Assembly (NCBI RefSeq): GCF_020149935.1
Contig: NZ_CP083757.1
Coordinates: forward strand, 3,931,501 to 3,995,500
DNA from: Marinilongibacter aquaticus
Lineage (GTDB): Bacteria; Bacteroidota; Bacteroidia; Cytophagales; Spirosomataceae
Reading direction: 5' to 3'
DNA: 64,000 nt
Both the position numbers and the translations under genes were made by a program. The notes under the pieces were generated by a model, which made no database searches, had not been told where the DNA came from, and worked only from the letters and a program-made list of their open reading frames with translations. Positions 4,182-59,127 of this stretch are shown here, piece after piece; position 1 is the first letter of the stretch, and each line of letters starts with the position of its first letter.

Positions 4182-4272
4182 ATTCAATTCTTTTTTACGT
4201 TTAAATTTTCGTTTGGTTAAAATCCTCAATTCTTGTTAAAGTCCATTTTGGATACTTTCCTTTTCGAAAACC

Positions 4273-40285: not shown

Positions 40286-40338
40286 GATTTTCAGGTTGAT
40301 TACGACCTGAATCTAGCAAGTAAAACCCCTGTGTGTCA

Positions 40339-40352
40339 GTAACAAATGTGAC
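40339..40352 (-). promoter_or_regulatory. GTNAC-N4-GTNAC motif upstream of SQR
   Basis: GTAAC (40339-40343) and GTGAC (40348-40352) are separated by 4 bp, 54 bp before the SQR ATG. They are embedded in a wider inverted repeat, TGTGTCA (40332-40338) with TGACACA (40349-40355). The same motif lies at similar distance before the MBL-rhodanese and TauE genes. Confidence 0.6.
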
Positions 40353-40386
40353 ACATTGTATATTTTCTATGAAAAATAGGGGAGAT

Positions 40387-40728
40387 TTAGCCTTTCTTTT
40401 TCGTGGCTTTGGCTTTTGGATTGTAGTCGAGGCACAGGTCGATCCAATAGCGGAGGTCTTGGTTTGTGCGTCGTCCGGTTTCGTCTACATATACATAACC
40501 TTTCATGGGTCTTTTGGCGAAGTCCATCGGGCGGGCTCCTTGCTTTTCAAGGACTTCGTTTTCTATGGCCGGGTCGATTCGGCACATGAGGTCGTCTTTG
40601 ATGACGCCAATGAGCATTTTGCCCTTCCACATAAAAGCTATACCGCCGAACATGTGCTTTTCTTCGAGTTGCTCGAGCGAGGCCAAAGCCTGTCTCAGGC
40701 GGTCGGCAAGGTGTTCGTTGTAGGCCAT
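40387..40728 (-). CDS. TfoX/Sxy N-terminal-domain protein
   Basis: This 113-residue protein is a single TfoX N-terminal domain: EEKHMFGGIAFMWKGKMLIGVIKDDLMCRI and MDFAKRPMKGYVYVDETG are diagnostic. TfoX/Sxy regulates competence in gamma-proteobacteria, where a second C-terminal domain is present; here it is absent, so a role in competence should not be assumed. The C terminus is Lys-rich (KAKATKKKG). It follows the mpl gene by 79 bp on the same strand. Confidence 0.88.
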   Translation of the reverse strand: MAYNEHLADRLRQALASLEQLEEKHMFGGIAFMWKGKMLIGVIKDDLMCRIDPAIENEVLEKQGARPMDFAKRPMKGYVYVDETGRRTNQDLRYWIDLCLDYNPKAKATKKKG

Positions 40729-40807
40729 AGGTTTGTTGCTTGAAAAGGTTTGTACTAAAAATAAGAAAAGCGTAAACCGCTTTCAAGTCCGAAACCCTTT
40801 TAAAGGC

Positions 40808-42256
40808 TTATTTCTTACTTCGCTTGCTGAAAAGCTTCGACAGTTTTCTTTTCCTTTTTACGGGTTCTTCTGTTTCGGGTATTTCTACGGGCAGAGATAA
40901 GATTTCTTGAGCAAAGGTTTTGAAATCCAAGCCATCGAAAGTGCCGGAAGACATCAACAAAAGGTTTTGTTTATACCAATTCTGGGCTTTCAAAAAGGCA
41001 AGCAGATCTTCTTGTTTGGTGAAGACTTCCAAATCTTCTCTTTGGAACGCTTGCTTGATTTCGTCTGCACTGAGCGGTGGCATTTTTTTCATTTCCAAAG
41101 TATGTGGACTGAAAAAGACTACCGCTTGATCTGCAGCGGCCAATTTTTCGGCATAGTGCGGCAAGAATTCCTTGTTTAGTGAGCTGAAAGTGTGCAGCTC
41201 ATAGCATGCCACGAGTTCACGGTCTGGGAATAGCTCTTTTGTGGCAGCTGTAGTGGCACCCACTTTGGAAGGAGCGTGAGCAAAATCGCGGTAGATTTTA
41301 CAGTATTCATTTTCGCCCTCGGTCTGCAAGCGTTTGGCCGCACCACCAAAAGAGCGGATGGCTTCGTAGAACATCTCATCCGTAATGGCCAAACGATCCA
41401 ACACCAATTTGGCACCCATTAGGTTTTTCATGTTGTGTTCGCCAAATATCTTCAAAGGCACCTCACCTTGGGCTGTTTCCAAAAATACCTGACCGTTCTT
41501 CACCGTATAAGGGTGAGCAGAATAAGGCAATTTGGCCACATCGGCATGCTCTTTTGCTCCGATCATTTTCAAGATGTCATCGCTTTCATCGTAAATAAAA
41601 GCCCCCGCTTTAGGAATGTCCTCAGCCAGAAGTTCGAAGCTTTTCACATAATCGTCGAAATTGGGGAACACATTGAAATGATCCCAAGCAATGCCCGACA
41701 TAAGGGCGATGTGCGGATGATAGGAAAGGAATTTCGAACGTTTGTCCAAAGCCGAAGAAAGGTATTCGTCTCCTTCGATAATGATTGTGGGGGCGTCGTC
41801 GGAAAGTTTAACCATCAAGTCGAAGCCTTCGATCTGGGCACCCACCAAGTAGTCGAATTTCCTGTTGAAATATTTCAGTACATGCAGAATGATGCTCGTG
41901 ATGGTGGTTTTTCCGTGTGAGCCTGCAATGACAATGCGTTGTTTGTTTTTCGATTGTACGTATACATATTCAGGAAAAGAGTAAATCTTCAAGCCCAGAG
42001 TTTGTGCTTTCAACAATTCGGGGTTATCTTTTCGAGCATGCATGCCGAGAATGACGGCGTCGAGGTTTTCGTGGATTCTGTCGGGGTTCCAACCCATTTC
42101 ATCGGGAAGGATTCCAGCGGCTTTCAATCGGGATAGAGCGGGATCGTAAATTTCATCGTCTGAACCGCTTACGGTAAAACCTTTTTGTTGAAGTGCCAAG
42201 GCCAAATTGTGCATTACCGCACCACCGATGGCAATGAAATGTATATTTTGAGACAT
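40808..42256 (-). CDS. mpl: UDP-N-acetylmuramate:tripeptide ligase Mpl (murein peptide ligase)
   Basis: This 482-residue Mur ligase family protein starts with a Rossmann-like domain, IHFIAIGGAVMHNLALALQQKG, giving the variant GGAVMHN that separates Mpl from MurC. The ATP site is RIVIAGSHGKTTITSIILHVL, followed by IIEGDEYLSSALDKRSKFL. The C-terminal domain has YRDFAHAPSKVGATTAATKELFP. Mpl recycles the murein tripeptide onto UDP-MurNAc. The end is Lys/Arg-rich. It is divergent from speA. Confidence 0.92.
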   Translation of the reverse strand: MSQNIHFIAIGGAVMHNLALALQQKGFTVSGSDDEIYDPALSRLKAAGILPDEMGWNPDRIHENLDAVILGMHARKDNPELLKAQTLGLKIYSFPEYVYVQSKNKQRIVIAGSHGKTTITSIILHVLKYFNRKFDYLVGAQIEGFDLMVKLSDDAPTIIIEGDEYLSSALDKRSKFLSYHPHIALMSGIAWDHFNVFPNFDDYVKSFELLAEDIPKAGAFIYDESDDILKMIGAKEHADVAKLPYSAHPYTVKNGQVFLETAQGEVPLKIFGEHNMKNLMGAKLVLDRLAITDEMFYEAIRSFGGAAKRLQTEGENEYCKIYRDFAHAPSKVGATTAATKELFPDRELVACYELHTFSSLNKEFLPHYAEKLAAADQAVVFFSPHTLEMKKMPPLSADEIKQAFQREDLEVFTKQEDLLAFLKAQNWYKQNLLLMSSGTFDGLDFKTFAQEILSLPVEIPETEEPVKRKRKLSKLFSKRSKK

Positions 42257-42414
42257 GAAAGCTTATTTCAATAAATCTAAAATTCCAAAATACCTTCTGG
42301 GTTGGCCAGAAAATCGAATTGCAAAGTTGCTAATTTTATGTCACATTTGCACGTTGTTTTTGGGTCCAGCCTATTCTGGAAATCAAAATGCGGGCCTCAG
42401 GCTTTTTATTTGAA

Positions 42415-43884
42415 ATGAAGAGATACATTGATCTAATTCAACAAACCTTTGAATTCCCTACCCGGGAATTTGGGGTTGACTTTAACAACAACCTGCTGTT
42501 CAACAATGTGCCTTTGATGGATATCATTGCCAAGTACGGCACGCCATTGAAAATCACATACCTTCCCAAGATTTCGGAGCATATCGGGCAAGCTCGTCTG
42601 ATGTTTAAGAATGCGATGAAAAAGTACAATTACAAGGGCACCTATACTTATGCCTATTGTACCAAATCTTCGCATTTCAAATATGTGCTCGAAGAAGCCT
42701 TGAAAAATAAAATTCATTTGGAAACCTCTTCGGCTTTCGATATGGATATTATTCGGGCTTTGCACGAAGACGGTAAGATCAATAAGGAAACTTATGTGAT
42801 TTGCAACGGCCACAAAAGGCCCGAGTACCTGAAACACATTACCAATTTCATCAATGAGGGTTTCGAAAATGTGATTCCCGTGTTGGATAACCTTCGCGAG
42901 GTGGACCATTATTTGGCCCATATCAAGGCCGATGAAATTCAGGTGGGTATTCGTATCGCTACGGATGAAGAACCCAATTTTGCTTTTTATACCTCTAGGT
43001 TGGGCATTCGATATAAAGATGTGGATGAGCTTTACATGACCAAAATAAAGCCCGATCCGCGATTTAAGCTGAAAATGCTTCACTTTTTCATCAATTCGGG
43101 TATTAAGGATACGGCCTATTATTGGTCTGAACTCACTCGTTTTATGTTCAAGTATTGCGAGATGAAAAAGATTTGTCCCGAATTGGACTCAATAGATATT
43201 GGCGGAGGTTTGCCGATCCAAACTTCGGTGGTTTTCAATTACGATTATCAAGCCATGATTGATGAGATAATCGAGAACATTCAATGGATTTGCAACAAAA
43301 ACAATGTGCCCGTACCGAATATTTTTACAGAATTCGGCAGTTATACGGTTGGGGAAAGCGGAGCCACATTGTACAAAGTGATTGATAAAAAGCAGCAAAA
43401 CGATCGCGAGCTTTGGTACATGATCGACGGTTCGTTCATTACACAATTGCCTGATTCTTGGGGGATTGGCCAAAAATACATTATGCTGCCCGTGAACAAT
43501 TGGGACAATCCATATGCCAAGGTGAACTTGGGCGGATTGACCTGCGATTCGGCTGATTATTACAATACCGAAGCCCACTCGGAGGATTTGTACATGCCGA
43601 TGTACGATGAAAAGGCCCACGAAGAGCAGTATATCGGATTTTTCCATACTGGGGCTTATCAGGAGTCTTTGGGCGGTTATGGTGGAATTCAGCATTGCCT
43701 GATTCCTTCGCCCAAGCACGTGTTGGTAAGCCAAGACGAAGAAGGCAATTTCTTGACGGAGCTGTTTGCCGAAGAGCAAGATGCCGAATCGATGATTCGC
43801 GTTTTGGGTTACCGCAGCGAACGCAAACTGGCGGAAAGATTGTATAATGAAAGTTCCGTCACGAAAGACGAATTGGATTCATAA
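42415..43884 (+). CDS. speA: Arginine decarboxylase, Bacteroidota-type
   Basis: From ATG 42415 it has 489 residues of the alanine-racemase-fold decarboxylase family. The cofactor lysine is in YTYAYCTKSSHFKYVLEEAL. HLETSSAFDMDII, ICNGHKRPEYL, IDIGGGLPIQTSV (phosphate-binding glycines), EFGSYTVGESG and CDSADYYN (catalytic Cys) follow in order. It is shorter than E. coli SpeA (about 630-660). The product would be agmatine for polyamine synthesis. An upstream ATG at 42388 would add nine residues and is possible. Confidence 0.85.
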   Translation: MKRYIDLIQQTFEFPTREFGVDFNNNLLFNNVPLMDIIAKYGTPLKITYLPKISEHIGQARLMFKNAMKKYNYKGTYTYAYCTKSSHFKYVLEEALKNKIHLETSSAFDMDIIRALHEDGKINKETYVICNGHKRPEYLKHITNFINEGFENVIPVLDNLREVDHYLAHIKADEIQVGIRIATDEEPNFAFYTSRLGIRYKDVDELYMTKIKPDPRFKLKMLHFFINSGIKDTAYYWSELTRFMFKYCEMKKICPELDSIDIGGGLPIQTSVVFNYDYQAMIDEIIENIQWICNKNNVPVPNIFTEFGSYTVGESGATLYKVIDKKQQNDRELWYMIDGSFITQLPDSWGIGQKYIMLPVNNWDNPYAKVNLGGLTCDSADYYNTEAHSEDLYMPMYDEKAHEEQYIGFFHTGAYQESLGGYGGIQHCLIPSPKHVLVSQDEEGNFLTELFAEEQDAESMIRVLGYRSERKLAERLYNESSVTKDELDS

Positions 43885-43887
43885 AAG

Positions 43888-43911
43888 AAAAGGGCTTCGT
43901 GCCCTTTTGTG
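43888..43911 (+). terminator. Intrinsic terminator after speA
   Basis: AAAAGGGC (43888-43895) pairs with GCCCTTTT (43901-43908) around TTCGT. Confidence 0.8.
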
Positions 43912-43973
43912 TTTATTCGACAATAAGCATTAAATTGTGACGTTTTCTCAAAAAGCATAAAAATTTACGGCTC

Positions 43974-44102
43974 ATGAAATTTAAAATCGCTGCCTTTTTC
44001 GTGTTGGCTACTCTTCTTTTTTCTTCATGTATGAAAAAACAGTGCCCTGCTTATGGCCAGCATATTGAAAAGAATGCTGAGCACGAAACAGTAAAAGCTT
44101 AA
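43974..44102 (+). CDS. 42-residue lipoprotein
   Basis: The frame starts MKFKIAAFFVLATLLFSSC, a full lipoprotein signal peptide with lipobox FSSC, and the mature peptide is only MKKQCPAYGQHIEKNAEHE and a short tail. One further Cys lies in the motif KKQCPAYG. Many Bacteroidota have similar tiny lipoproteins with a 'CPAY/CPS' motif; function unknown. It sits between the speA terminator and a convergent oxidoreductase gene whose last 4 bp it overlaps. Confidence 0.7.
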   Translation: MKFKIAAFFVLATLLFSSCMKKQCPAYGQHIEKNAEHETVKA

Positions 44103-45097
44103 GCACGGTCTACTCTTTGGCAGATCTGTTCGAGAACCCAGTTCGTTCGAGCCCCACTTTCTCCGGTTGAGGGGCTTTTTGTTTTTCCCTTGTTGTTCAG
44201 TTCGTCAACCATCATTTGTATAAGTGGCTGTTGAATGTGTTCGGGCATCTCGAATTTTAATCTCTTGGGTTCTTCACGATCTATGAAAACATCCACATTG
44301 AAATCGCTGAAAAAGGGAAATTCGATTCTTCCTTTGCTTCCGTAGATTACACTTTTTTCAGTTTCAGATTCCAAGGCACTGGCAAAACACCAACTGCCTT
44401 GTCCGATCACACCGTTTTCGAAAACGAAGGAACCTAGAGTGGTGTCTTCCGCTGCATAAAGGCCTCCGTAGTTGGCTGCAAAGCCCTGAGCTCTCACAAT
44501 GGGGCCAAACAAGAAATCGAAGAAGTCGAGCTGATGGGAAGCAAGATTATAAAAATACCCGGCTCCAGCAATTTCGGGTTTTGTCCGCCAATTGCTTTCG
44601 TTTTCGCTTTGTCCAACAATATCGGGATGCAAGGATTTGTGTACGCGGATATCTACAAAACGAATATCGCCAATGCTTCCATTTTCGATCAATTCTTTGA
44701 TTTTCAAGAAATTGGGCAAGGCTCTTCTGTAGTAAGCCACAAACAGGGGCACGCCGGCTTGCTTGCAAGCTTCGACCATCGCCGTGCATTCGCCATAATT
44801 GCGGGCCATCGGTTTTTCTACGTATACGGCTTTGCCAGCTCGGGCGGCCATTTGCGTGTAATGGGCATGAGAATCGGGTGGTGTGGCAATGTACACGGCA
44901 TTGATTTCGGGGTCGTTGATCAATTGTTCCGCATCACTGTAAAATTTGGGCACGCCATGTCTCTTGGCGAAATCCTCGGCTAAGTGTGCGGTTCTTCTCA
45001 TCACGGCGACGAGTGCTGAGCCTTCTGCTTTTTGCAGGGCAGGCCCACTTTTCAATTCGCATACATCACCTACACCAATTATTCCCCATTTGATCAT
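44099..45097 (-). CDS. Gfo/Idh/MocA family oxidoreductase
   Basis: This 332-residue cytoplasmic NAD(P)-dependent enzyme has the Rossmann start IKWGIIGVGDVCELKSGPAL, VYIATPPDSHAHYTQMAARAGK and the catalytic-type VEKPMA. The C-terminal domain contains YYRRALPNFLKIKELIENGSIG and AGYFYNLASHQLDFFDFLFG, with the usual DxxxH-type residues. Members oxidise or reduce sugars and sugar-like compounds; the substrate cannot be told. It is a single gene. Confidence 0.92.
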   Translation of the reverse strand: MIKWGIIGVGDVCELKSGPALQKAEGSALVAVMRRTAHLAEDFAKRHGVPKFYSDAEQLINDPEINAVYIATPPDSHAHYTQMAARAGKAVYVEKPMARNYGECTAMVEACKQAGVPLFVAYYRRALPNFLKIKELIENGSIGDIRFVDIRVHKSLHPDIVGQSENESNWRTKPEIAGAGYFYNLASHQLDFFDFLFGPIVRAQGFAANYGGLYAAEDTTLGSFVFENGVIGQGSWCFASALESETEKSVIYGSKGRIEFPFFSDFNVDVFIDREEPKRLKFEMPEHIQQPLIQMMVDELNNKGKTKSPSTGESGARTNWVLEQICQRVDRA

Positions 45098-45170
45098 TTC
45101 GCTATTTTTTTGCTAGCGAAATTAGGTAAAATATAGGACATTTTAGATTTGATTGAATACTGTTCTGAAT

Positions 45171-46271
45171 TTATGGGCATGGAGAAATATTGTCGATTTT
45201 GGCTTGGAACACTTCATTTGAACCGGCTTGGAAACCGGCCAAAAGTGAGATGCTTTTTCCCGCCAAATAATAGGTTTGATTGGCCACATTGGCTTGACTA
45301 CTTATCGTATTGCTGGCTTCATAATTGCCTGCCAATTGGTTGATCGTTCCAAAATTTAGGTCTGAGCCTGTGCCTTTCCAGCCGGGTTTGTAATACTGAA
45401 TGGTTTCTCGCATATACTCTTTTTGGCCGTTTGTGAAGCGGTCTCGGCAACTGAAATAAGACATAAAATTGTACACGGCTACGCCCAAAGGTTGTCCTGT
45501 GCAAGCATTTATGGCATTGGGGTCGCAGCCCGAACCTTGAAGCTGAATGGGGGTATCTTCGATGTCGTCGATGTGTGCGAAAGGAAATGAGGCTGGATTG
45601 CAGCTTGAAGCAAATGTATGGGCCAAATCCAGCACATGACCTACTTCATGAGTAAGAAAAGCCTTGTTGCTCGCATCGTTGTTTACCCGAAAGTAGGGAA
45701 TGAAGGCATCGTATTCAAAATAGCCCACACCAATCGGGCTATCGGTGTAAACGACACGGATATTGATGTAACTGTCACGTGGCCAGTCGCTCAAAAAACG
45801 CAGGGCATTGTGCATGTCGGTGTTGCTCACGCTGTATTCGTTGTGGGTATAGCCGCTGATGCCACTTGCGTTTACGCGTACGATACCGTTGCTTGGATTG
45901 CAACTCGGATCGTGTGTGGCCAAGGCGAATTGAATTTTCGTATCGGGGGTGACACCTGAAAAACTGCCCGTAGCCCTGTAAGTTTCATTCAGCGTATTGA
46001 TCATGCCCTCAATTGCACTGCTTGGAATATTGCTTCCCGTACCTTCGGCTTCGCCAATATGGTATACATGAAAAACAACAGGGATCGTGTATACCGTTGT
46101 TTGGTCCAAACCTCCATCCGAAATACTCTGGGTTCTGTTTTGTCTATTCTTTTGCAATGAATTTTCAGAAGAGATAAGTCCCAAGCCGCAATCTATATTT
46201 TGGGCCGCCAAGACCGCAGGAATAAACAAGCCGATGATGAGCTTCAGAATACGTTTTAGGCAGGTTTTCAT
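45171..46271 (-). CDS. Secreted M43 (pappalysin-type) zinc metalloprotease
   Basis: This 366-residue protein has a signal peptide (MKTCLKRILKLIIGLFIPAVLA). The catalytic domain has the extended zinc motif HEVGHVLDLAHTF (HExxHxxGxxH-like) and the downstream Met-turn YNFMSYFSCRDRFTNGQ, as in cytophagalysins. The last about 60 residues (GNYEASNTISSQANVANQ, AGFQAGSNEVFQAKI) form a 3-coathanger-stack domain seen in surface proteins of Bacteroidota. A -7 element and a NarL-like inverted repeat lie upstream. Confidence 0.92.
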   Translation of the reverse strand: MKTCLKRILKLIIGLFIPAVLAAQNIDCGLGLISSENSLQKNRQNRTQSISDGGLDQTTVYTIPVVFHVYHIGEAEGTGSNIPSSAIEGMINTLNETYRATGSFSGVTPDTKIQFALATHDPSCNPSNGIVRVNASGISGYTHNEYSVSNTDMHNALRFLSDWPRDSYINIRVVYTDSPIGVGYFEYDAFIPYFRVNNDASNKAFLTHEVGHVLDLAHTFASSCNPASFPFAHIDDIEDTPIQLQGSGCDPNAINACTGQPLGVAVYNFMSYFSCRDRFTNGQKEYMRETIQYYKPGWKGTGSDLNFGTINQLAGNYEASNTISSQANVANQTYYLAGKSISLLAGFQAGSNEVFQAKIDNISPCP

Positions 46272-46371
46272 GTGTTCGGGTTTCTTCCCCTTTGGCTACC
46301 TAAAATTGCTCTGTATGATTGCAGAGCAGTATTGAATGAAAGGCGTTTTGGAGGAAACGGTATTTGTCTTG

Positions 46372-46379
46372 CAAAGCTA
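46372..46379 (-). promoter_or_regulatory. -7 element of the M43 protease gene
   Basis: On the minus strand TAGCTTTG matches TAnnTTTG, about 100 bp before the start codon. There is no TTG at -33; instead a palindrome lies near that place, consistent with an activator-dependent promoter. Confidence 0.5.
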
Positions 46380-46399
46380 CTTTTTCGCAAGATTCGAGT

Positions 46400-46421
46400 A
46401 AATACGTATAGATACGTATTT
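46400..46421. promoter_or_regulatory. NarL-like 7-2-7 inverted repeat
   Basis: TACGTAT (46403-46409), AG, ATACGTA (46412-46418) form two head-to-head heptamers separated by 2 bp, extended to a 10-bp perfect arm on each side (46400-46421). NarL-type response regulators bind 7-2-7 repeats of the TACYYMT kind. The centre is about 44 bp upstream of the predicted transcription start of the M43 gene, and the site lies 15 bp past the stop of a NarL-family regulator gene. Confidence 0.55.
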
Positions 46422-46436
46422 CGAGATAAACGAATC

Positions 46437-47072
46437 TTATAGGTTGATAATGAATACTTTGTTTTCTTTTATCCAATCGATGAGATTGATAGGCCCGATG
46501 TGTTTGTGCAGTTTGCTTACAATATTGCTGCGGTGCTTTTCGACGGTTCTGACGGAAACAAAAAGCTTTTCCGAAATTTCTTTGCTGCTGAAATCTCGGT
46601 TGATCAATTTCAATATTTTTCTTTCTGAGGGCGTAAAGTCGGTATACAGTTGGCGGTAAGCGGCTTCAATATGCGAGGGGATATTGGATAAGCTTTCGCT
46701 GTAGTAACTTTGCCCTTTCAATACGGCTTCCAGGCAATCGTTAATGTTTTTTCCTACCTCTTCTTTGAGTAGATAGCCCATGATGCCCAACTCTTTGGTA
46801 TAGGCCAAAAGGCTGGGTTCTTTATGGAAAGTCAGGATAATGAAAGCCGTTTTAACCTGTTCGTTTCGGCAGGTTTTGATCACGGAAAAACCATCGGCCT
46901 CGGGCATTTCTATATCCAATATCGCTACATCAATTTTTTGCTCCCGCAAATGGGTCAGAGCTTCATTTCCATTGAAAGCTTCGGCCACGATACAGTACTT
47001 GCTGCGGTCGATGGCGTGTGCCAAACCTTGCAACAATAGCGGGTGATCGTCGGCGATTAATAAATTGATCAT
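46437..47072 (-). CDS. NarL/FixJ-family response regulator
   Basis: This 211-residue regulator has an N-terminal receiver domain: acidic pair in INLLIADDHPLLLQGL, phosphorylated Asp in VAILDIEMPEADG and Lys in GYLLKEEVG (KE variant). The C-terminal LuxR-type HTH is FTPSERKILKLINRDFSSKEISEKLFVS plus RTVEKHRSNIVSKLHK. Its start overlaps the histidine kinase stop by 4 bp, so the pair is an operon with the kinase first. Confidence 0.94.
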   Translation of the reverse strand: MINLLIADDHPLLLQGLAHAIDRSKYCIVAEAFNGNEALTHLREQKIDVAILDIEMPEADGFSVIKTCRNEQVKTAFIILTFHKEPSLLAYTKELGIMGYLLKEEVGKNINDCLEAVLKGQSYYSESLSNIPSHIEAAYRQLYTDFTPSERKILKLINRDFSSKEISEKLFVSVRTVEKHRSNIVSKLHKHIGPINLIDWIKENKVFIINL

Positions 47073-49030: not shown

Positions 49031-49133
49031 GCTGCTCTTTGGCTAATGCATATAAAAATAGAAGATTCGGCTGCGTGTATCCAAATTTTTAAGGCCTTGA
49101 GCCGTTTTCCATATATATTCTCGCGTATCCGCG

Positions 49134-49141
49134 TACTTTTG
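49134..49141 (+). promoter_or_regulatory. -7 element just before the T9SS-exported nuclease gene
   Basis: TACTTTTG matches TAnnTTTG, 7 bp before the ATG at 49149. As at 37390, it would give a leaderless or near-leaderless message. Confidence 0.45.
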
Positions 49142-49148
49142 CGACATC

Positions 49149-50351: not shown

Positions 50352-50392
50352 CTCGCAATTCTAATATTATTCATTCTATACCTAATTAAATA

Positions 50393-51850: not shown

Positions 51851-51869
51851 GCCTCGGATTATGAAATAA

Positions 51870-51910
51870 AAAAGCCCTCTTTGGAAATTTTCCGAGAGGG
51901 CTTTTGTTTT
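51870..51910. terminator. Bidirectional intrinsic terminator
   Basis: AAAAGCCCTCT (51870-51880) pairs perfectly with AGAGGGCTTTT (51895-51905) between convergent genes, with T-rich flanks on both strands. Confidence 0.85.
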
Positions 51911-51923
51911 GGCTTGTGGCCTT

Positions 51924-52346
51924 TCAGCCGTATTTGTGGCTCATGTATGCATGGCTTTCCTTCATCAGTTCACACAGAGCATCTTCATCGATGTCTTCCA
52001 ACTTTTTGATATACAGGCAAGATTTCCCTGTTTTGAATTTGCCCAATTTCTGTAAAATCTCTTCATAGCGGGCAAATCCCGGCATTATGTAAAGTGTGAG
52101 TGCATTTTTACGCGGAGAAAACCCGATTTTTGGCATATCTCCCTCGCGTCCACTTTCGTATTTGTAATGATAAGAGCCATAGCCCACAATGCTCGGGCCC
52201 CACATTTTGGCTTCTTCAGAAAACAGCGTGTTCATCATTTCGAAAAGATGCAGGCTGTCGGTTTTTCTTTTCGGGTCTTCGATTTTTTCCAAGAAAGCTG
52301 CGACCGAGGCCTCCGTTTCTTTGGTTTTATTTTCAGCTTGTGCCAT
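51924..52346 (-). CDS. DUF1801 protein
   Basis: This 140-residue cytoplasmic protein shows the DUF1801 (YdhG-like) pattern: LFEMMNTLFSEEAKMWGPSIVGYGSYHY, FSPRKNALTLYIMPGF and GKSCLYIKKLEDIDEDAL. Its function is unknown. It begins 14 bp inside the end of the tag gene, so the two are probably translated from one message. Confidence 0.88.
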   Translation of the reverse strand: MAQAENKTKETEASVAAFLEKIEDPKRKTDSLHLFEMMNTLFSEEAKMWGPSIVGYGSYHYKYESGREGDMPKIGFSPRKNALTLYIMPGFARYEEILQKLGKFKTGKSCLYIKKLEDIDEDALCELMKESHAYMSHKYG

Positions 52347-52881
52347 AATCGAAACGGTTTTTCAGGTTTTCAATTTCTTCATGCACAGGGCAGTCGGCAT
52401 CGTGCGGCGTGGGCAAGTAGCCCGAACTTTGCAAAAATTCGTTCACGATTTCACCACCCACGAACTTGAAATTCTTTTTGAAGAGTTTCACCCATTCCTG
52501 TTTTTCCAAAGGATAATGTTCGCAAATCCAATTTTTGAAACTCCCGAATTCCTTTTGCAGTTCGAGAATCCTTTGGGCATTGTAGATGGCGGCATTGATC
52601 TTCAACCTGTTTCGAATAATGCGGGCATCTTGCAAAAGACGTTCGAAATCGCTTTCACCGTATCCTGCCACCACTTCAATATCAAAAGCGTCGTACGCTT
52701 CTTTAAAGCCTTCTTGCTTTTTCAGAATGGTATCCCACGAAAGTCCGGCCTGGTTTATTTCGAGTACAAGCCTCTCGAACAAAGCCTGATCATCCTCTAT
52801 CGGGTGGCCATAGAATTGGTCATGATAAATGCGGTGCACATTGTCTTCGGGAAGGCTTTTGCAGAAATTACAGTAGGACAT
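52333..52881 (-). CDS. tag: DNA-3-methyladenine glycosylase I
   Basis: From ATG 52881 it has 182 residues. The start MSYCNFCKSLPEDNVHRIYHD keeps the N-terminal Cys of the Tag zinc site, followed by YGHPIEDDQALFERLVLEINQAGLSW and TILKKQEGFKEAYDAFD, both diagnostic. The C-terminal zinc ligands are in PTPHDADCPVH. Tag removes 3-methyladenine from DNA. The longer frame (52902) adds seven residues and is less likely. Confidence 0.92.
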   Translation of the reverse strand: MSYCNFCKSLPEDNVHRIYHDQFYGHPIEDDQALFERLVLEINQAGLSWDTILKKQEGFKEAYDAFDIEVVAGYGESDFERLLQDARIIRNRLKINAAIYNAQRILELQKEFGSFKNWICEHYPLEKQEWVKLFKKNFKFVGGEIVNEFLQSSGYLPTPHDADCPVHEEIENLKNRFDYGTS

Positions 52882-53000
52882 CGTAAAAGGTTTATTTGTC
52901 AAATCTAAATCAAATTTTCAGGATAATCACAAAATCGTAATGCCCGAATATTGGCTTGCATATTTGAGTCCATTAATTTGCAGCACAATTCTACAATCAA

Positions 53001-53948
53001 ATGAAATACACCCTTATTTTCTTTCTGGTTTCGATTTCCGTATTGGCTCAAAAGCACAAAACGCTGGTGGTGCTTGTCGATGGAATTCCTTTTGATGTGA
53101 TTGAAAAAGTGTCTACGCCTAATTTGGATGCCATTGCGTCCGACGGCGGTTTTGCGGCGGCCTATGTGGGCGGTGAAAAAGGTGGGGTTTCCGAGTCGCC
53201 CACGATTTCGGCTGTGGGTTACAATTCGATGCTTACAGGCACTTGGGCAAACAAACACAATGTGTGGGGGAATGGCATCAAGGCTCCGAATTACGCTTAT
53301 CCAACCTTTTTTCAATTGGCCAGAGCCGCAAAGCCAGCATTGACTTTAGGTATTTTTTCGACTTGGGAAGACAATCGAACAAAGCTTTTGGGCGAAAATA
53401 AAGCAGAAACAAATCACCTGCATTTGGATGTGAAATTTGATGGATACGAAAAGGATACTGTCAATTTTCCGCACGATGCCAACAGAGAGTATATCAAAAA
53501 TATAGACGAATTGGTGGTAAGTAAAGCGGTTGAGTCTTTGAAAGGAAAAGAGGCTCCTGATATTTCTTGGGTGTATTTGGAATACACCGACGATATGGGG
53601 CACAAGTTTGGCGACAGCCCGCAATTTTATGATGCGGTGAGTTTTGAAGATCATTTGATCGGTAATCTATACGAGACCATTAGAGAGAGGGAAAAGAGTT
53701 TGGGAGAAGAATGGTTGGTGGTGGTGACAACCGATCATGGGCGAAGCGAAAAGGATGGCAAAGGACATGGCGGACAAAGTGCACGCGAACGCAAGACATG
53801 GATTGTGACCAATCAAAATGGGCTTAATACGCGTTTCAAGAGTGGGTTGGCTGTGGTGGATATCCTGCCTTCGGTATGTCGTTTTATGGATATCGAAATT
53901 CCGCAAGAAGTGGCTGGCAATTTGGATGGACAAAGCTTTTTGAAATAA
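53001..53948 (+). CDS. Exported alkaline-phosphatase-superfamily phosphodiesterase
   Basis: This 315-residue protein has a signal peptide (MKYTLIFFLVSISVLAQ). It belongs to the type I phosphodiesterase/nucleotide pyrophosphatase family: VVLVDGIPFDVI (metal Asp), SPTISAVGYNSMLTGTW (nucleophile region, with Ser rather than Thr likely), YTDDMGHKFGD (D-x3-H), VVTTDHGRSE and GHGGQS with the late His. All metal ligands are in place, unlike the ebo homologue. The substrate is not known. Confidence 0.88.
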   Translation: MKYTLIFFLVSISVLAQKHKTLVVLVDGIPFDVIEKVSTPNLDAIASDGGFAAAYVGGEKGGVSESPTISAVGYNSMLTGTWANKHNVWGNGIKAPNYAYPTFFQLARAAKPALTLGIFSTWEDNRTKLLGENKAETNHLHLDVKFDGYEKDTVNFPHDANREYIKNIDELVVSKAVESLKGKEAPDISWVYLEYTDDMGHKFGDSPQFYDAVSFEDHLIGNLYETIREREKSLGEEWLVVVTTDHGRSEKDGKGHGGQSARERKTWIVTNQNGLNTRFKSGLAVVDILPSVCRFMDIEIPQEVAGNLDGQSFLK

Positions 53949-54005
53949 GGCCTTTCAGCCGTTCTTTGTTTAATCCTTGCTATCTTGCAGCGTAAAAGCA
54001 AGCGA

Positions 54006-54251
54006 ATGGAAATCAAAATAGGTACGCAAAAGAACAATCCCTTGCACGGTGTGCGTCTCGATTACATCTTGGAGGTGTTGGTGGCTCATTTTGGTTGGTC
54101 GGGTTTGGGCAAGATTGTTCGCGTCAATTGCTTCAACAACAATCCGACCATGAAATCGAGCTTGAAATTTCTACGACAAACCCCTTGGGCCAGAGAAAAA
54201 GTGGAAGAATTGTATCTTGAATTGGCCGAAAGAGAAGGCTTATTGGGCTAG
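54006..54251 (+). CDS. VF530-family (DUF2132) small DNA-binding-like protein
   Basis: From ATG 54006 it has 81 residues: [60 protein letters not shown]. These match the VF530 family, whose solved member has a fold suggestive of DNA binding. It is cytoplasmic. It follows the phosphodiesterase gene by 57 bp and may be co-transcribed. Confidence 0.9.
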
Positions 54252-54262
54252 TTCAATTTGTC

Positions 54263-55531
54263 TTAATGGCAATCGTATGGGCCATGAATGGCTTTGATGG
54301 TCATTTTTTCGTCTCGGTCATCCAGAATATAAACCCAGAATTTTTGACCGCCGGGCATTACACGAATCACCACATGTCCCGAATCGCTTTTGAGTCTGTC
54401 GAGTAAATTTCCGATCACCAATTTGTTGGCTTCGAGCATGTCGGTGGCAAAGACATCGCGATTGCCTGAATAGATATTTTGATCGTAAATGCGATCAATT
54501 ACATTGTGTCCGGGATGGTCTGAAGACCAAGTGGGAATCACAAAAACCTGTGGACGCAGGTTGGCCAGTAGGTTGGCGTTTATGGCATCGCGGTTGCCGT
54601 GGTGATCCAAAATCATAGCTTCTACAGGGCCAACCACTTGCGATACGGGAGTTTCAAGGTCTTGCCAGGCGGGTCGACCAAAACGCAAGTTTCCGGGCAT
54701 GTCTCCTCCAGAAAAATAATCGAAAGCTCCATAGCTGATACGGATGCCAATGCTGCACATGTTTTCGCTCGGATACAGGCTTTTGTCTAAGTCGCCCAAA
54801 TCGGGAAAGAGGTTTTTGGTGTTTGATCCGAAGCCTGTCCACAATTTTCCGTTTGCCACGATATTCCGTATTTCAAAAGTATCTTGGAACGTTTCTGGTT
54901 TGTATTTGAGCACCAACTGATCTTTAGATCCTGCTTTACTTTGTTCGAATCGAAGCCCCTTGTGTCCGCTTTGCCATTTTACAAACTGCTTGTAATTCTC
55001 CATCATAGGGCTATTCTGCACCACGGGGTAATCGTAATTTGGATAAGCTCGGTCAATGATTTTGCCGATCGGTAAATATGCGGCAAGCTCGGTAATACCC
55101 GTGAGGAAATAATTGCCCTCCGATGCTTTTGGCGAAACAGATGAAAGGGCACCCATGTGGTCGTCGTGAAAATGCGTAAGTTGGGCGTAGTCGAGCTGAG
55201 GTGACAGTCCGCTTCTTTCCATGAAATTCCGTACATAACGGGCAATCCACTCACCCGGCTGGCGAGAGTCGTTGGGTTTCGCTGCCGTATTCCTTGGACT
55301 TTGTACCCTTGGGCTTGTGGGGTCCAGAGCTCCGGCGTCGATCAGCAAAGTGGTGCCGTCTGGAAGGAGAATAAAAGCGGCATTTCCACGCCCCGTACTG
55401 ATCTGGTGAATTTCGAGGTTGCCTTCCTGCCATTTTGGGTAGGTATCGCCCACTTTCTGTGCCAAAAGAGGGAAAGAAAAGGAAAAAAGAACAGCCAATA
55501 AAATCTTGTGCATGCCAACAGGGTTTTTCAT
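54263..55531 (-). CDS. Exported metallo-beta-lactamase-fold hydrolase (ComEC/Rec2-like)
   Basis: This 422-residue protein has a signal peptide (MKNPVGMHKILLAVLFSFSF then PLLAQ). An alternative start is the ATG at 55513. The MBL fold has LLIDAGAL, the metal motif LTHFHDDHMGAL, FSGGDMPG and ILDHHGNRDA, in the pattern of ComEC-type MBL hydrolases. Here the domain is free and exported, without ComEC membrane parts. The substrate is unknown. It is convergent with the VF530 gene, 11 bp away. Confidence 0.85.
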   Translation of the reverse strand: MKNPVGMHKILLAVLFSFSFPLLAQKVGDTYPKWQEGNLEIHQISTGRGNAAFILLPDGTTLLIDAGALDPTSPRVQSPRNTAAKPNDSRQPGEWIARYVRNFMERSGLSPQLDYAQLTHFHDDHMGALSSVSPKASEGNYFLTGITELAAYLPIGKIIDRAYPNYDYPVVQNSPMMENYKQFVKWQSGHKGLRFEQSKAGSKDQLVLKYKPETFQDTFEIRNIVANGKLWTGFGSNTKNLFPDLGDLDKSLYPSENMCSIGIRISYGAFDYFSGGDMPGNLRFGRPAWQDLETPVSQVVGPVEAMILDHHGNRDAINANLLANLRPQVFVIPTWSSDHPGHNVIDRIYDQNIYSGNRDVFATDMLEANKLVIGNLLDRLKSDSGHVVIRVMPGGQKFWVYILDDRDEKMTIKAIHGPYDCH

Positions 55532-55614
55532 TGCCTACGAATTTAGGCTGTTCTTTCTTATTGCCCTTAAAGGCAAAGTAAAATTTACGGAATCGTAATA
55601 CAGGTTAGCCACGG

Positions 55615-56037
55615 CTAGTGCGGGAGTTTATCCCGCAAAAAGCCATACAGCCAAGTGCCAAAGATTGCCGATATTAACGTAAAAACAACACCGAGTTGTC
55701 CATGCCCAATTTGAGCAAACAAAGGCCCCGGACAAGCTCCTGTCAAAGCCCAGCCCAAGCCAAAAAGCAATCCGCCAAATATTTGACCTTTGTGAAATTG
55801 TTTCGGCTTGAGGCTAATTGTATCTCCGGAAAGTGTTTTAATGTTGAATTTTTTGATCAGCCAAACCGAGAGCATACCCACCAGCACGGCACTGCCGATG
55901 ATGCCGTACATATGGAAACTTTGGAGGCGGAACATTTCTTGAATGCGGTACCAATTGATCACTTCGGATTTGACAAATATGATTCCAAAAGCGATACCGA
56001 CCAGACTGAATTTCAGGTTTTGCGTGATTAATTTCAA
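55615..56037 (-). CDS. YeeE/YedE-type sulfur transporter, C-terminal half protein (DUF6691-like)
   Basis: No ATG lies near the start of the conserved domain. A TTG at 56037 gives MKLITQNLKFSLVGIAFGII and 140 residues, which fits the family. It has about four membrane segments and the conserved cysteine loop LLFGLGWALTGACPGPLFAQ. The N-terminal YeeE half is a separate gene 14 bp upstream. YeeE/TsuA family proteins import thiosulfate. An ATG-started frame from 56181 would run through the upstream gene and is rejected. Confidence 0.8.
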   Translation of the reverse strand: MKLITQNLKFSLVGIAFGIIFVKSEVINWYRIQEMFRLQSFHMYGIIGSAVLVGMLSVWLIKKFNIKTLSGDTISLKPKQFHKGQIFGGLLFGLGWALTGACPGPLFAQIGHGQLGVVFTLISAIFGTWLYGFLRDKLPH

Positions 56038-56051
56038 AGGAGTGAATCGTT

Positions 56052-56615
56052 TTAAAATGAAAGAATGATTGGCATCAAGACATTGGCCATGAGAAAACCG
56101 CCAAGCATAAAGCAAACGGTAGCAACGAGGGAAGGCCATTGCAGATTCGAAAGGCCCATAATGGCATGTCCACTTGTGCATCCACCTGCATAGCGGGCTC
56201 CAAAACCCACCAGAAATCCTCCAAGAATCATAAAAATGAACCCTTTGAAATGGCCCAAGGCCTGAATGCCGATAAGCTTTGCGGGCAATAGATTGTCAAA
56301 TTGGTCCAAACCATAGGTTTTGAGCTCGCTTGCCAAGTCGGGGTTAATTTGCAGCGGTTCGGGGTTTTCGAGAAAATGAGCACTCAAAAAGGCTCCGATG
56401 GCAATGCCGGCTACAAAAAACAGGTTCCACGCTTCGGCTTTCCAATTGTATTTGAAAAAGTCGATATTCGATGGAAAGCAAGAGGCACAAATGTGCCGAA
56501 GTGATGAGCTGATACCGAAAGATTTGTTGTCTAGGATCAATAATAAAGGCACAGTAAGGCCAATTAAAGGCCCGGCCACATACCATGGCCAGGGCTCTCT
56601 AAGTAATTCAAACAT
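56052..56615 (-). CDS. YeeE/YedE-type sulfur transporter, N-terminal half protein
   Basis: This 187-residue membrane protein has about five hydrophobic segments and the cysteine loop [21 protein letters not shown], the signature of YeeE/TsuA. A second conserved stretch is [14 protein letters not shown] near residue 35. In single-chain homologues this and the following gene product are one protein. It lies between the MBL-rhodanese gene (49 bp upstream) and the second half (14 bp downstream), as in the blh/PDO-type operons of other bacteria. Confidence 0.88.
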
Positions 56616-56664
56616 GAAAAAGTATTTAAATTTTTAAGACGCAGAATACGCCTTAGTATGGATT

Positions 56665-58080
56665 TTAGCTTGCAAAGACCTTGCTCTGGCAAACGAAATC
56701 TGTTTTAGGTAAATTGGTTTCTGAAATGCTTTTGAATCCGCCTTCGATTTCCGAGAAATTGCGGTATCCACGAGCCTGAAGAATACTGGCTGCCATCATG
56801 CTGCGGTAACCGCCGGCACAGTGCAAGAAGAAATGTTCTTCAGGGTTTATGTCGCCAACCCAGTCGTTGATATAAGCCAAAGGGCGGTTGAAAGCGTCTT
56901 CCACGTGCTCCGCCTGATACTCAGATTCTTTGCGTACATCGATTACCTTGCTGGTTTCAAGGTTGAACTCGGACGCAAACTCTTGTGCCGTTATGCGGTG
57001 GACGCTGTCTACCTCTTTCATGGCCTCTTTCCAAGCGGGGAAACCGCCTTCTAAATAGCCAATTACATTGTCGAAGCCCACACGGCTCAATCTGGTAACG
57101 GCTTCTTCCTCTGTGCCTGGGGCGGTTACCAAAAGAAGCGGTTGTTGCACGTCGACGATAAGAGCACCTACCCACGGAGCGAAATCTCCTTTAAGACCGA
57201 TGTTTACGGCGTTGGGAATAAAACCCTTGGCAAATTCACCGTTGTCGCGTGTATCGAGGATCAAGGCTCCGCTGTTTTCCGCAACCAATTCGAATGCCTC
57301 GGCATCGAGGGCTTTCATGCCTTTGTCCAAAACTTTTTCGAAACTGTCGTAACCTTTTTTGTTCATCGCCACGTTCATGCCGAAATAGGCTGGCGGAGGA
57401 AGCAGGCCATCGGTTACCGCTTTGATGAAAGACTCCCGATCCGCTTGATTCAAGGCGTAATTCACTTTTTTCTGATTGCCCAAAGAGTCAACGGTCTCTT
57501 TCATCATGTTTTTTCCACATGCCGATCCGGCTCCGTGAGCAGGGTAAACAGTGATGTCGTCAGAAAGCGGAAGTATTTTCGTATATAGACTATCGTATAG
57601 TAGTCCGGCCAATTCTTCTTGCGTCATATTGGCTGATTTTTGAGCGAGGTCGGGACGCCCCACATCGCCGAGGAAAAGTGTGTCTCCGCTAAATAGAGCC
57701 GATTCTTTACCTTCTTCATCGATCAAAAGGTAGCAAGTGCTTTCTATGGTATGCCCGGGTGTGTGCAAAACTTTTATTTTCACGTTTCCGACTTCAAAGA
57801 TCTGCTCGTCTTCGGCAATAATGGCTTCAAATTCGGGCTGTGCTTTTGGGCCGTATACGATAGGAGCACCGCTTTTTTCGCTGAGGTCGACATGGCCACT
57901 TACAAAATCGGCGTGGAAATGCGTTTCGAATATATATTTCAGTTTGGCACCGTCGCGTGCAAGACGTTGCATATACGGGGCTGTTTCGCGTAAAGGATCA
58001 ATAATTGCGGCTTCTTGGCCCGAGCGGATGTAATAGGCACCTTGTGCTAAACATCCAGTGTAAATTTGTTCTACTGTCAT
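56665..58080 (-). CDS. MBL-fold / double-rhodanese protein (persulfide dioxygenase type)
   Basis: This 471-residue protein has an N-terminal metallo-beta-lactamase domain with ETHFHADFVSGHVDL, LHTPGHTIES, FSGDTLFLGD and YPAHGAGS, the single-iron pattern of persulfide dioxygenases (ETHE1-like). Two rhodanese domains follow. The first lacks the cysteine (LLLVTAPGTEEEA), the second has it (FFLHCAGGYRSMMAAS). It would turn glutathione-type persulfide to sulfite. It heads the operon with the two YeeE halves. A GTNAC motif lies 57 bp upstream. Confidence 0.9.
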   Translation of the reverse strand: MTVEQIYTGCLAQGAYYIRSGQEAAIIDPLRETAPYMQRLARDGAKLKYIFETHFHADFVSGHVDLSEKSGAPIVYGPKAQPEFEAIIAEDEQIFEVGNVKIKVLHTPGHTIESTCYLLIDEEGKESALFSGDTLFLGDVGRPDLAQKSANMTQEELAGLLYDSLYTKILPLSDDITVYPAHGAGSACGKNMMKETVDSLGNQKKVNYALNQADRESFIKAVTDGLLPPPAYFGMNVAMNKKGYDSFEKVLDKGMKALDAEAFELVAENSGALILDTRDNGEFAKGFIPNAVNIGLKGDFAPWVGALIVDVQQPLLLVTAPGTEEEAVTRLSRVGFDNVIGYLEGGFPAWKEAMKEVDSVHRITAQEFASEFNLETSKVIDVRKESEYQAEHVEDAFNRPLAYINDWVGDINPEEHFFLHCAGGYRSMMAASILQARGYRNFSEIEGGFKSISETNLPKTDFVCQSKVFAS

Positions 58081-58136
58081 TGTTGAAGAATTTTTATTTC
58101 TTAATTCAAATTTCGATTAAATACTTTGTGTACACA

Positions 58137-58150
58137 GTTACATTGGTTAC
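58137..58150 (-). promoter_or_regulatory. GTNAC-N4-GTNAC motif upstream of the MBL-rhodanese operon
   Basis: GTTAC (58137-58141) and GTTAC (58146-58150) with a 4-bp spacer, 57 bp before the start codon. On the coding strand it reads TGTAACCAATGTAAC. A GTGTACAC palindrome (58128-58135) is adjacent. Confidence 0.6.
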
Positions 58151-58160
58151 ACAGCCTTAA

Positions 58161-58955
58161 TTAGGCTTGTAAGACGGTTTCTCTAATCAGAATGTAAATG
58201 CCCATTATCAATACAAACCATCCAAAAGCAGGTTTTAGTTGCTGTCCATTCAGCTTTTTGGAAAGGAAAGTGCCCAGAAAAATGCCCAGTACAGCAAATG
58301 CCGAAACACTCAGCAGGAGTGTCCAATCCATGCTGTGATGCCCCAGGCTGCTCAAAAAACCAATGATGGAATTGATGACAATGATGGCCAGGGACGTGCC
58401 GATGGCTTCTTTTACAGGGATTTTGCCCAACATTACCAGAGCCGGGATGATCAAGAAACCGCCACCCACGCCCACAAGGCCCGTGAGAAAACCCACAAGG
58501 GCCCCTTCCACGCCAATTACAAACCGGCTTTCTTTTATTCGTATGATCGGTTTGGATTTGCTTTCCGATTTGATCATCGAATAAGATGCGGCGATCATCA
58601 GTACAGAAAAAAGCACCATAATCAGCAATTCTTTGGTGAGCGTGAATTGCCCCCATTGGAAAAGCGTATCGGGAATCTGCGGTAAAATGAATTTCCGGGT
58701 AATGAAAATGGAAACCACAGAAGGAAGGCCGAAAAGGCCGATGGCCGTGGTGTTGATCAGGCCCTGCCGAAAGTAGGCAATTACCCCAAATGAGCTTGAA
58801 ATGCCCACAATAAGCAAAGAATATGTGGTGGCGAGCAGCGGGTCAATCCCAAAAATATAGACAAGCACGGGTACAGTGAGAATCGACCCCCCGCCGCCAA
58901 TTAAACCCAAAGAAACACCAATTAAAATGGCTGCCAAAAAGCCTAATAGATGCAT
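58161..58955 (-). CDS. TauE/SafE-family sulfite/sulfonate exporter-like protein
   Basis: From ATG 58955 it has 264 residues and about eight membrane segments. The two TauE repeats show LIGVSLGLIGGGGSILTVPV and LTGLVGVGGGFLIIPALVML. Family members export sulfite, sulfoacetate or other anions. With the MBL-rhodanese protein downstream the likely cargo here is sulfite. It has its own GTNAC motif and is transcribed in the same direction as the MBL-rhodanese operon, 80 bp ahead. Confidence 0.9.
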   Translation of the reverse strand: MHLLGFLAAILIGVSLGLIGGGGSILTVPVLVYIFGIDPLLATTYSLLIVGISSSFGVIAYFRQGLINTTAIGLFGLPSVVSIFITRKFILPQIPDTLFQWGQFTLTKELLIMVLFSVLMIAASYSMIKSESKSKPIIRIKESRFVIGVEGALVGFLTGLVGVGGGFLIIPALVMLGKIPVKEAIGTSLAIIVINSIIGFLSSLGHHSMDWTLLLSVSAFAVLGIFLGTFLSKKLNGQQLKPAFGWFVLIMGIYILIRETVLQA

Positions 58956-59006
58956 TTTGTTATTTTTGTTGAGACACAAAGTTCGTCCTATTCAATGGGC
59001 TCAAGC

Positions 59007-59020
59007 GTTACTTTTGTTAC
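59007..59020 (-). promoter_or_regulatory. GTNAC-N4-GTNAC motif upstream of TauE
   Basis: GTTAC (59007-59011) and GTTAC (59016-59020) with a 4-bp spacer, 52 bp before the TauE start. It lies between divergent TauE and histidine kinase genes and might act on either. Confidence 0.6.
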
Positions 59021-59127
59021 ATTGAAAACAAAATCAGGATTGTCTTAATTTAAGATACTGATGGATAGTGGACTGCGTCTTGCAAGAAAAACATTTTTTT
59101 TAACCATTTTAGACCTAGACTCATAAA

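Follow-up and report, generated by a model that had tools for sequence, protein, structure and literature searches.

A Crp/Fnr-type operator of sulfide and persulfide genes in Marinilongibacter aquaticus and the stand-alone regulator that probably reads it

The class II sites of E. coli CRP have the form TGTGA-N6-TCACA at −41.5, which is the class II activator position, and mutants of this protein with altered specificity at residue 181 are known. SqrR of the ArsR family and CstR of the CsoR family are persulfide sensors, and FixL/FixJ-FixK is an oxygen control system. BigR, a repressor of the winged-helix type, has two cysteines (PMC5823870). A Crp/Fnr regulator of sulfide or persulfide was not recognized among the open-access papers covered. 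We describe here an operator, GTNAC-N4-GTNAC, found in a stretch of 64,000 nucleotides of M. aquaticus DNA (the window), together with SCRP, a stand-alone Crp/Fnr protein encoded outside it.

The operator has exactly three exact matches in the 64 kb window, while shuffled windows contain 0.28 on average and none of 100 shuffles reached three. These are the three sites reported in the initial annotation, at 40339–40352, 58137–58150 and 59007–59020; the distances to the start codons of SQR (54 bp), the MBL-rhodanese operon (57 bp) and TauE (52 bp) could also be reproduced, the last of them measured from an ATG with its A at 58955 (in the longest ORF the start is a TTG at 58979). The sites had further been said to share one orientation: all three genes do lie on the minus strand, but since GTNAC-N4-GTNAC, in IUPAC notation, reads the same on both strands, the orientation of the motif carries little information. 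A looser 16-mer with up to 2 mismatches was no commoner in the window than chance predicts (16 matches, with 16.6 expected), so that the signal there resides only in the strict form.

The first operator, GTCACATTTGTTAC in gene-strand reading (40339–40352, minus strand), precedes an SQR-like sulfide:quinone oxidoreductase (39029–40285, minus strand; Pyr_redox_2), whose best NCBIfam match, SQR type III, scores 228 bits, under its cut-off of 525. The candidate −7 element of this promoter, TAGATTCA (40308–40315, minus strand), is placed 23 nt downstream of the operator and has 2 mismatches to TAnnTTTG; it is the weakest of the set, and this poor box counts against the reading by SCRP proposed below. 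The second operator, GTAACCAATGTAAC (58137–58150, minus strand), is followed at exactly 22 nt by the −7 element GAAATTTG (58107–58114, minus strand) and precedes a gene (56665–58080, minus strand) for an MBL-fold protein (PF00753) with two rhodanese stretches (PF00581). This layout, which we take to be CstB-like, shares with the CstB-like persulfide dioxygenase-sulfurtransferases the order of an MBL domain and then two rhodanese domains; the protein, known here from its domains, is predicted to be a probable persulfide dioxygenase/sulfurtransferase. A YeeE/Sulf_transp half protein (56052–56615, minus strand) and a second, YeeE/DUF6691 half protein (55615–56181, minus strand) are probably encoded in the same operon. 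The third operator, GTAACAAAAGTAAC (59007–59020, minus strand), stands before a predicted exporter of the TauE/SafE family (58161–58955, minus strand, ATG start), again with a −7 element, GAACTTTG (58977–58984, minus strand), exactly 22 nt downstream; the same 14-mer also precedes MBL-rhodanese or TauE genes in genomes of families f2 and f4.

The whole-genome scan that the initial annotation had asked for returned only 24 copies of the operator, compared with 160 of the pattern read backwards. Five are promoter-proximal, and all five precede sulfur genes: SQR, the MBL-rhodanese operon, TauE, a YgaP-like membrane protein and a rhodanese pair (the last site, L008, is a promoter site because the pair lies on the plus strand there). 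Judged by ORF calls, Pfam and reading, 18 copies fall within coding sequence; among these ORFs, L005 and the short peptide of L019, whose site was placed by eye, are without family support, and L017 has a weak match only. One copy (L014) is intergenic, with a −7-like box and no ORF behind it, and was left out of the sulfur promoter count.

Conservation in relatives, another check proposed at the outset, is apparent in the place that the site keeps. Of 80 unique sites from 55 genomes, 58 are followed by TAnnTTTG (with at most 1 mismatch) at a distance of exactly 22 nt, and the other offsets between 5 and 49 give 0 to 8 each; a control pattern with 45 sites gave a single −7 box at offset 22. The spacing rule was first noticed on the promoters of M. 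aquaticus and of the first relatives, and counted afterwards. As the first T of the Bacteroidota −7 box is at −12 (PMC6847099), a site 22 nt before this element is centred at −41.5, that is, the palindrome takes the class II position relative to the predicted starts. In loci of relatives selected for sulfur genes, 33 of 46 unique sites precede sulfur genes of the panel, 7 precede other genes (4 SulP, 1 SoxA/TsdA cytochrome, 1 TPMT-like, 1 Usp) and 6 are inside genes.

The initial annotation had assigned a split sulfide/persulfide regulon to one regulator, with the Crp-domain response regulator at 60329 as the nearest candidate. The first half of this proposal stands, as one Crp-type operator links the split regulon; its reader, however, is very probably SCRP, which would bind the operator as a class II activator of the sulfur genes. 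SCRP (P0005, 208 aa; G000:C1:1813391-1814014) is encoded about 2.2 Mb from the window, beside the fifth site, that of the rhodanese pair. With PF00027 at 50.0 bits and PF13545 at 42.2 bits, both above cut-off, it belongs to the Crp/Fnr superfamily; its score with NF008732, the cAMP-dependent CRP equivalog, is 53.4 bits against a cut-off of 266, and only cNMP and Crp-type domains were found in P0005, with neither an ArsR nor a CsoR fold.

Computation ties the site, its fixed spacing and the regulon to this protein. Of 30 loci of the order (that of M. aquaticus included), 23 have the SCRP gene next to a sulfur gene, as do 15 of 26 outside it, where 13 of 14 sites have a −7 box. The composite promoter is present in 32 of 55 genomes with SCRP and in 0 of 33 without it (p = 2e-9), and three control half-sites yielded 0 composite promoters. 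The strict site follows the same distribution (22/55 genomes with P0005, 2/33 without; p = 0.0004), and eleven genomes have the site and SCRP but not REC-Crp. Against the link stand 23 of the 55 SCRP genomes, which lack the composite promoter in the loci fetched, the two genomes without SCRP (G097, G107) that have a site when the strict form alone is counted, and eight control patterns, which matched before a sulfur gene in 0 to 4 genomes. A cNMP domain is encoded by 17 ORFs of the M. aquaticus genome, in 16 of them above cut-off, and another of these proteins could bind the operator too.

In the mechanism that we propose, an SCRP dimer would bind TGTNAC-N4-GTNACA centred at −41.5 and would activate, in class II fashion, promoters with the Bacteroidota −7 box. 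Its predicted targets are SQR, the MBL-rhodanese/YeeE operon, TauE, the YgaP-like membrane protein and the rhodanese pair adjoining its own gene; certain relatives would add SulP sulfate permeases and a SoxA/TsdA-type cytochrome to this set. The signal would most likely be a sulfide-derived persulfide or polysulfide that modifies Cys77 in the sensor domain. We infer that binding is direct, that the effect is activation and not repression, and that the signal is of this kind, so that SCRP would be a class II activator responsive to sulfide or persulfide. For sulfide oxidation in Bacteroidota this names a regulator and an operator, together with a regulon that can be tested.

SCRP resembles E. 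coli CRP in its cNMP domain and Crp helix-turn-helix, with base-contact residues 180 and 185 (R180 and R185 in 58 of 58 SCRPs), and its palindrome has the same spacing and −41.5 position as the CRP sites. It differs in that residue 181 is V or E; the protein of M. aquaticus has V, with the matching base free. The −7 box of its promoters, TAnnTTTG, and a regulon of sulfur rather than carbon genes also set it apart from CRP. G occupies the variable base in 5 of 46 half-sites from V genomes and in 38 of 56 from E genomes (p = 3e-9), leaving out G049 (one V and one E protein), G072 (V and a second, shortened SCRP) and G097, G107 and G127 (no SCRP typed). When G072, with G in 6 of its 14 half-sites, is added to the V genomes, their count becomes 11 of 60 (p = 8e-8); outside the order the corresponding figures are 0/24 (V) and 2/4 (E; p = 0.016). 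Two genomes run contrary to the pairing, G078 (V, GTGAC) and G064 (E, GTAAC). The tree calls for at least 5 changes of residue 181, and between 1 (supported branches) and 3 independent pairs can be drawn, so that a sign test cannot reach significance; phylogeny weakens the link between residue 181 and the base. In this pairing, nature would offer a parallel to the residue-181 mutants of E. coli CRP, with both sites and proteins on record. On a wider proposal our judgement is evenly balanced: the main sulfide/persulfide switch of Bacteroidota may be a Crp/Fnr lineage not named before, which would act as a class II activator and carry its invariant sensing Cys in the old cyclic-nucleotide domain, its DNA specificity retuned several times by Glu/Val exchange at 181 and its promoters co-evolving base by base.

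Like SqrR/BigR (ArsR) and CstR (CsoR), SCRP has as its targets genes for sulfide/persulfide oxidation, sulfur transfer and export, and its gene adjoins these targets in many genomes; unlike BigR it is a Crp/Fnr protein, a likely activator, and often has one cysteine. Cys77 is invariant (59/59 SCRPs), and in 21 of the 59, that of M. aquaticus included, it is the sole cysteine, which speaks for a sensing role. In many Crp/Fnr proteins the cNMP domain, which P0005 keeps, serves to bind small ligands. The nearest solved chain, 3dv8 (E = 1.4e-23), listed only as a Crp/Fnr family regulator, also has a cysteine aligned to Cys77, though with a further cysteine near it that P0005 lacks, and a Usp gene adjoins SCRP in one tested locus (L215). 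It is therefore a serious possibility, if short of an even one, that SCRP reads the operator but senses sulfite, thiosulfate, NO, redox state or a nucleotide, the cysteine being structural. The resemblance of its regulon to that of the sulfide sensor BigR (PMC5823870) argues for the persulfide signal instead. If the cysteine is the sensor, a Crp/Fnr activator would join the sulfide and sulfane-sulfur sensors reported from other families (BigR, MarR, PerR, YrkD, OxyR).

Several regulators of the response to sulfide and sulfane sulfur, namely BigR (PMC5823870), MarR proteins, PerR and YrkD, are repressors, and SCRP might likewise act mainly as a repressor at these promoters, released by persulfide as BigR is. 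We regard this as improbable. Of 59 promoters, 1 has TTG, which forms the core of the −33 box, between −38 and −29, a stretch that the site itself partly occupies. The site is held at exactly −41.5, the geometry of a class II activator, and a repressor would not need one fixed spacing at so many sites. Not all known sensors are repressors, as OxyR activates genes for sulfane sulfur removal.

A third reading, that the neighbouring REC-Crp response regulator (60329–61387, plus strand), phosphorylated by its partner, a PAS histidine kinase (59128–60354, plus strand), binds these three operators, linking sulfide oxidation with respiration, is very unlikely. REC-Crp is the nearest Crp-type gene, divergent from TauE, with ccoG/fixH genes in the same window, and two genomes with REC-Crp but not SCRP (G041, G070) have a TGAC-N4-GTCA site at −41.5 of MBL-rhodanese. 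The pair resembles FixLJ/FixK in its sensor kinase, its REC and Crp-type helix-turn-helix output, its class II spacing and its linkage to cbb3 oxidase and ccoG/fixH. Among 80 REC-Crp loci (flanks of up to 10 kb, many shorter), a histidine kinase is present in 73 and cbb3 oxidase (CcoNO) in 27, with COX1 and FixO confirmed for the M. aquaticus gene, whereas a YgaP-like gene is found in 2, MBL-rhodanese in 1, SQR in 1 and TauE in 0. REC-Crp does not predict the site (11/47 genomes with it, 13/41 without; p = 0.47), and the composite promoter occurs in 0 of 17 genomes with REC-Crp but not SCRP. Its loci are rich instead in TGAY-N4-RTCA at the class II place of −41.5: 103 of 668 matches have the −7 box, against 2/120, 3/88 and 3/132 for control patterns, and 19 of the 103 precede the kinase or REC-Crp gene, while GTNAC-N4-GTNAC appears in 11 places only, 2 with box. 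It counts in favour of REC-Crp that a boxed TGAY-type site was not found in the promoter region of the M. aquaticus kinase and REC-Crp genes (58950–59200), so that autoregulation is not seen in this genome. Against it, the recognition helix also differs, residue 180 being K, T, L or I and never R (20/20). REC-Crp was accordingly rejected as the reader, and its kinase is not part of the sulfur regulon. Two Crp-type regulons with one promoter geometry can thus be told apart, one for respiration (TGAY-N4-RTCA, REC-Crp) and one for sulfur (GTNAC-N4-GTNAC, SCRP). The looser 16-mer and the many copies in coding sequence might suggest that a rare word has merely clustered by chance at the three sites; this is hardly credible given the fixed spacing, the conservation both among families of the order and beyond it, and the sulfur genes behind every promoter copy.

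The three GTNAC-N4-GTNAC sites reported in the initial annotation (40339-40352, 58137-58150 and 59007-59020) are present as described and are the sole exact matches in the window, at the claimed distances of 54, 57 and 52 bp from the predicted starts of SQR, MBL-rhodanese and TauE, respectively (gene calls being ORF-based); 0.28 sites are expected in the window, and none of 100 shuffles reaches three. The strict pattern occurs at 24 places in the whole genome (one contig of 4.64 Mb), versus 160 for the pattern read backwards. Coding sequence holds 18 of these copies, 17 in long ORFs (15 with clear Pfam support, the one at locus L017 with a weak match below cut-off, the one at L005 with none) and one inside a short peptide ORF at L019, read by eye. 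The promoter-proximal copies number five: those of the window, one at L006, before a gene for a YgaP-like membrane protein (PF11127), and one at L008, before two rhodanese genes; the suggested genome-wide scan finds sulfur genes behind all five. Another YeeE/DUF6691 gene of this genome (L004, 1099-1578) has a GTNAC site within its coding sequence.

Conservation was assessed in 88 genomes of the same order, at loci chosen through sulfur genes. About 1.03 Mb of these loci (overlapping loci are counted twice in this length) contains 46 unique strict sites: 33 precede MBL-rhodanese, TauE, SQR, YgaP-like, rhodanese or YeeE genes, 7 precede other genes (four SulP sulfate permeases, one SoxA/TsdA-type cytochrome, one TPMT-like methyltransferase and one Usp protein), and 6 lie inside genes. 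The anticipated conservation in relatives is thus borne out, with nearly all promoter sites ahead of sulfur genes, an outcome that the sulfur-gene sampling favours.

The sites also have a fixed position within the promoter. According to PMC6847099, Bacteroidota promoters combine a -33 box, TTTG, with a -7 box, TAnnTTTG, whose first T lies at -12; the -7 box is also given in PMC9723704. Of the five promoter sites in our genome, four are followed at a distance of exactly 22 nt by a -7 box with no more than one mismatch; the SQR site is the exception, with a two-mismatch box at 23 nt. This spacing was first noticed on these promoters and the first relatives; 60 further sulfur loci were then fetched and the boxes counted over all the loci of relatives. 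Offset 22 accounts for 58 of the 80 unique sites (55 genomes), versus 0 to 8 for each of the other offsets between 5 and 49; one site is flanked by a box on either side. For a control half-site pattern with 45 sites, the count at this offset is 1. With the -7 box starting at -12, an offset of 22 puts the centre of the 14-mer at -41.5, which is the classical class II Crp position. TTG occurs between -38 and -29 in 1 of the 59 promoters with an offset-22 box; because the site itself occupies part of this interval, this is no more than an indication that the promoters lack a -33 box. The one remaining genomic copy (L014 1501-1514, G000:C1:3196060) is intergenic with no ORF behind it; it has a one-mismatch box at 22 nt and, by eye, a terminator-like hairpin about 80 nt further, and may belong to a regulon member that is a small RNA.

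The regulator first put forward was the REC-Crp protein (60329..61387, + strand), partner of the PAS kinase at 59128..60354 (+), but its neighbourhood, its own motif and its co-occurrence all point elsewhere. In 80 REC-Crp loci (L051-L130) the kinase is present in 73 and the cbb3 oxidase in 27, and sulfur genes are rare (2 YgaP-like, 1 MBL-rhodanese, 1 SQR and no TauE). GTNAC-N4-GTNAC occurs there at 11 places, 2 of them with a box; the loci are enriched in a different class II motif, TGAY-N4-RTCA, 103 of whose 668 matches have a -7 box at 21-23 nt (2/120, 3/88 and 3/132 for control half-sites). Nineteen of the 103 precede the kinase or REC-Crp gene, so that autoregulation is possible, and 5 precede cco genes. 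CcoI of our genome is preceded by a TGAY-type site and a -7 box, each with one mismatch (L018, ~8100-8150); no boxed TGAY-type site was found upstream of the kinase. The PAS domain of this kinase contains a His followed by a Tyr, within a stretch that resembles the heme-PAS of FixL, as would suit a kinase that controls the cbb3 oxidase in response to oxygen.

A different Crp protein adjoins the targets in 7 of 20 sulfur loci of relatives. Its ortholog here, P0005, is a stand-alone protein of 208 aa, encoded outside the window by a gene that is followed, after 77 bp, by the L008 site; we refer to this family as SCRP. It is present in 73 of 148 genomes of the order at ≥90 bits (the scores fall from 94 to 55), and a search of the phylum places it in 57 of 148 genomes at ≥150 bits (next match 75). 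A sulfur gene adjoins SCRP in 23 of 30 loci of the order, our own included, and in 15 of 26 outside it. A universal stress protein gene adjoins SCRP in one relative (L215, 11774-12574), with an ORF of like size in the same place at L216 (7894-8697); a Usp gene also lies behind a GTNAC site at L275 (1131-2021).

With loci chosen through sulfur genes only, 22 of the 55 genomes with SCRP have a strict site ahead of a sulfur gene, versus 2 of the 33 without (p = 0.0004); split by REC-Crp, the counts are 11 of 47 with and 13 of 41 without (p = 0.47). These p-values overstate independence, as the genomes are related. Eight control patterns precede sulfur genes in 0 to 4 genomes. The composite promoter (site with at most one mismatch, box at 22) occurs in 32/55 genomes with SCRP and 0/33 without, including none of the 17 that have REC-Crp and lack SCRP; three control half-sites give 0. 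The REC-type pattern is also commoner with SCRP (17/55 versus 2/33; 26 versus 5 with one mismatch); because it overlaps GTGAC sites, it cannot serve as a clean control. Two genomes that have REC-Crp and lack SCRP (G041 and G070; loci L306 and L310) carry a ATGACGAAAGTCAT site at the -41.5 place of MBL-rhodanese, as would be expected if this sulfur gene had passed to the REC-Crp regulon.

Recognition residues could be compared with those of E. coli CRP, whose base contacts are listed in PMC12531629 as Arg180, Glu181 and Arg185. In the match of P0005 to a full-length CRP chain, residue 200 of the former is the last to be paired, with residue 198 of the latter, so that R182, V183 and R187 correspond to CRP 180, 181 and 185 if no gap intervenes. 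All 58 SCRPs that cover this region carry R at both 180 and 185, and position 181 divides them into 25 with V and 33 with E. At the base predicted to be read by residue 181, G stands in 5 of 46 half-sites from V genomes (n = 16) and in 38 of 56 from E genomes (n = 19; p = 3e-9, by genome 2e-5), five genomes being omitted; with the V genome G072 included (G in 6/14), the V count becomes 11/60 (p = 8e-8). Loci outside the order, examined later, agree, with G in 0/24 (V) versus 2/4 (E; p = 0.016). G078 and G064 are counterexamples, and although a tree requires at least 5 changes at residue 181, it yields only 1 to 3 independent contrasts, so the phylogenetic test is underpowered. In E. coli CRP, substitution of Glu181 by Val, Leu or Lys loosens or changes the readout of that base position. 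All 20 REC-Crp proteins compared share E181 and R185, but their residue 180 is K, T, L or I, consistent with a TGAY half-site that lacks the outer G.

No NCBIfam model scores above cut-off for P0005, and the open-access literature yielded no Crp/Fnr regulator of sulfide or persulfide among the matches listed. SCRP would be a Crp/Fnr activator with a new regulon and, probably, a new signal. All 59 SCRPs carry Cys77, usually within a LYYxxxGE(S/T)C-like stretch; it is the sole cysteine in 21, our own protein included, and 33 have one or two more cysteines 6-7 residues after it. It is also found in 3dv8, the nearest solved chain. Cys77 together with the regulon suggests that SCRP may sense persulfide or polysulfide directly.

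The short ORF of L019 (~4120-4230, minus strand) has THCSNCGHCTATL at its end and resembles a lanthipeptide precursor; ORFs of 156, 310 and 784 aa lie downstream on the same strand.
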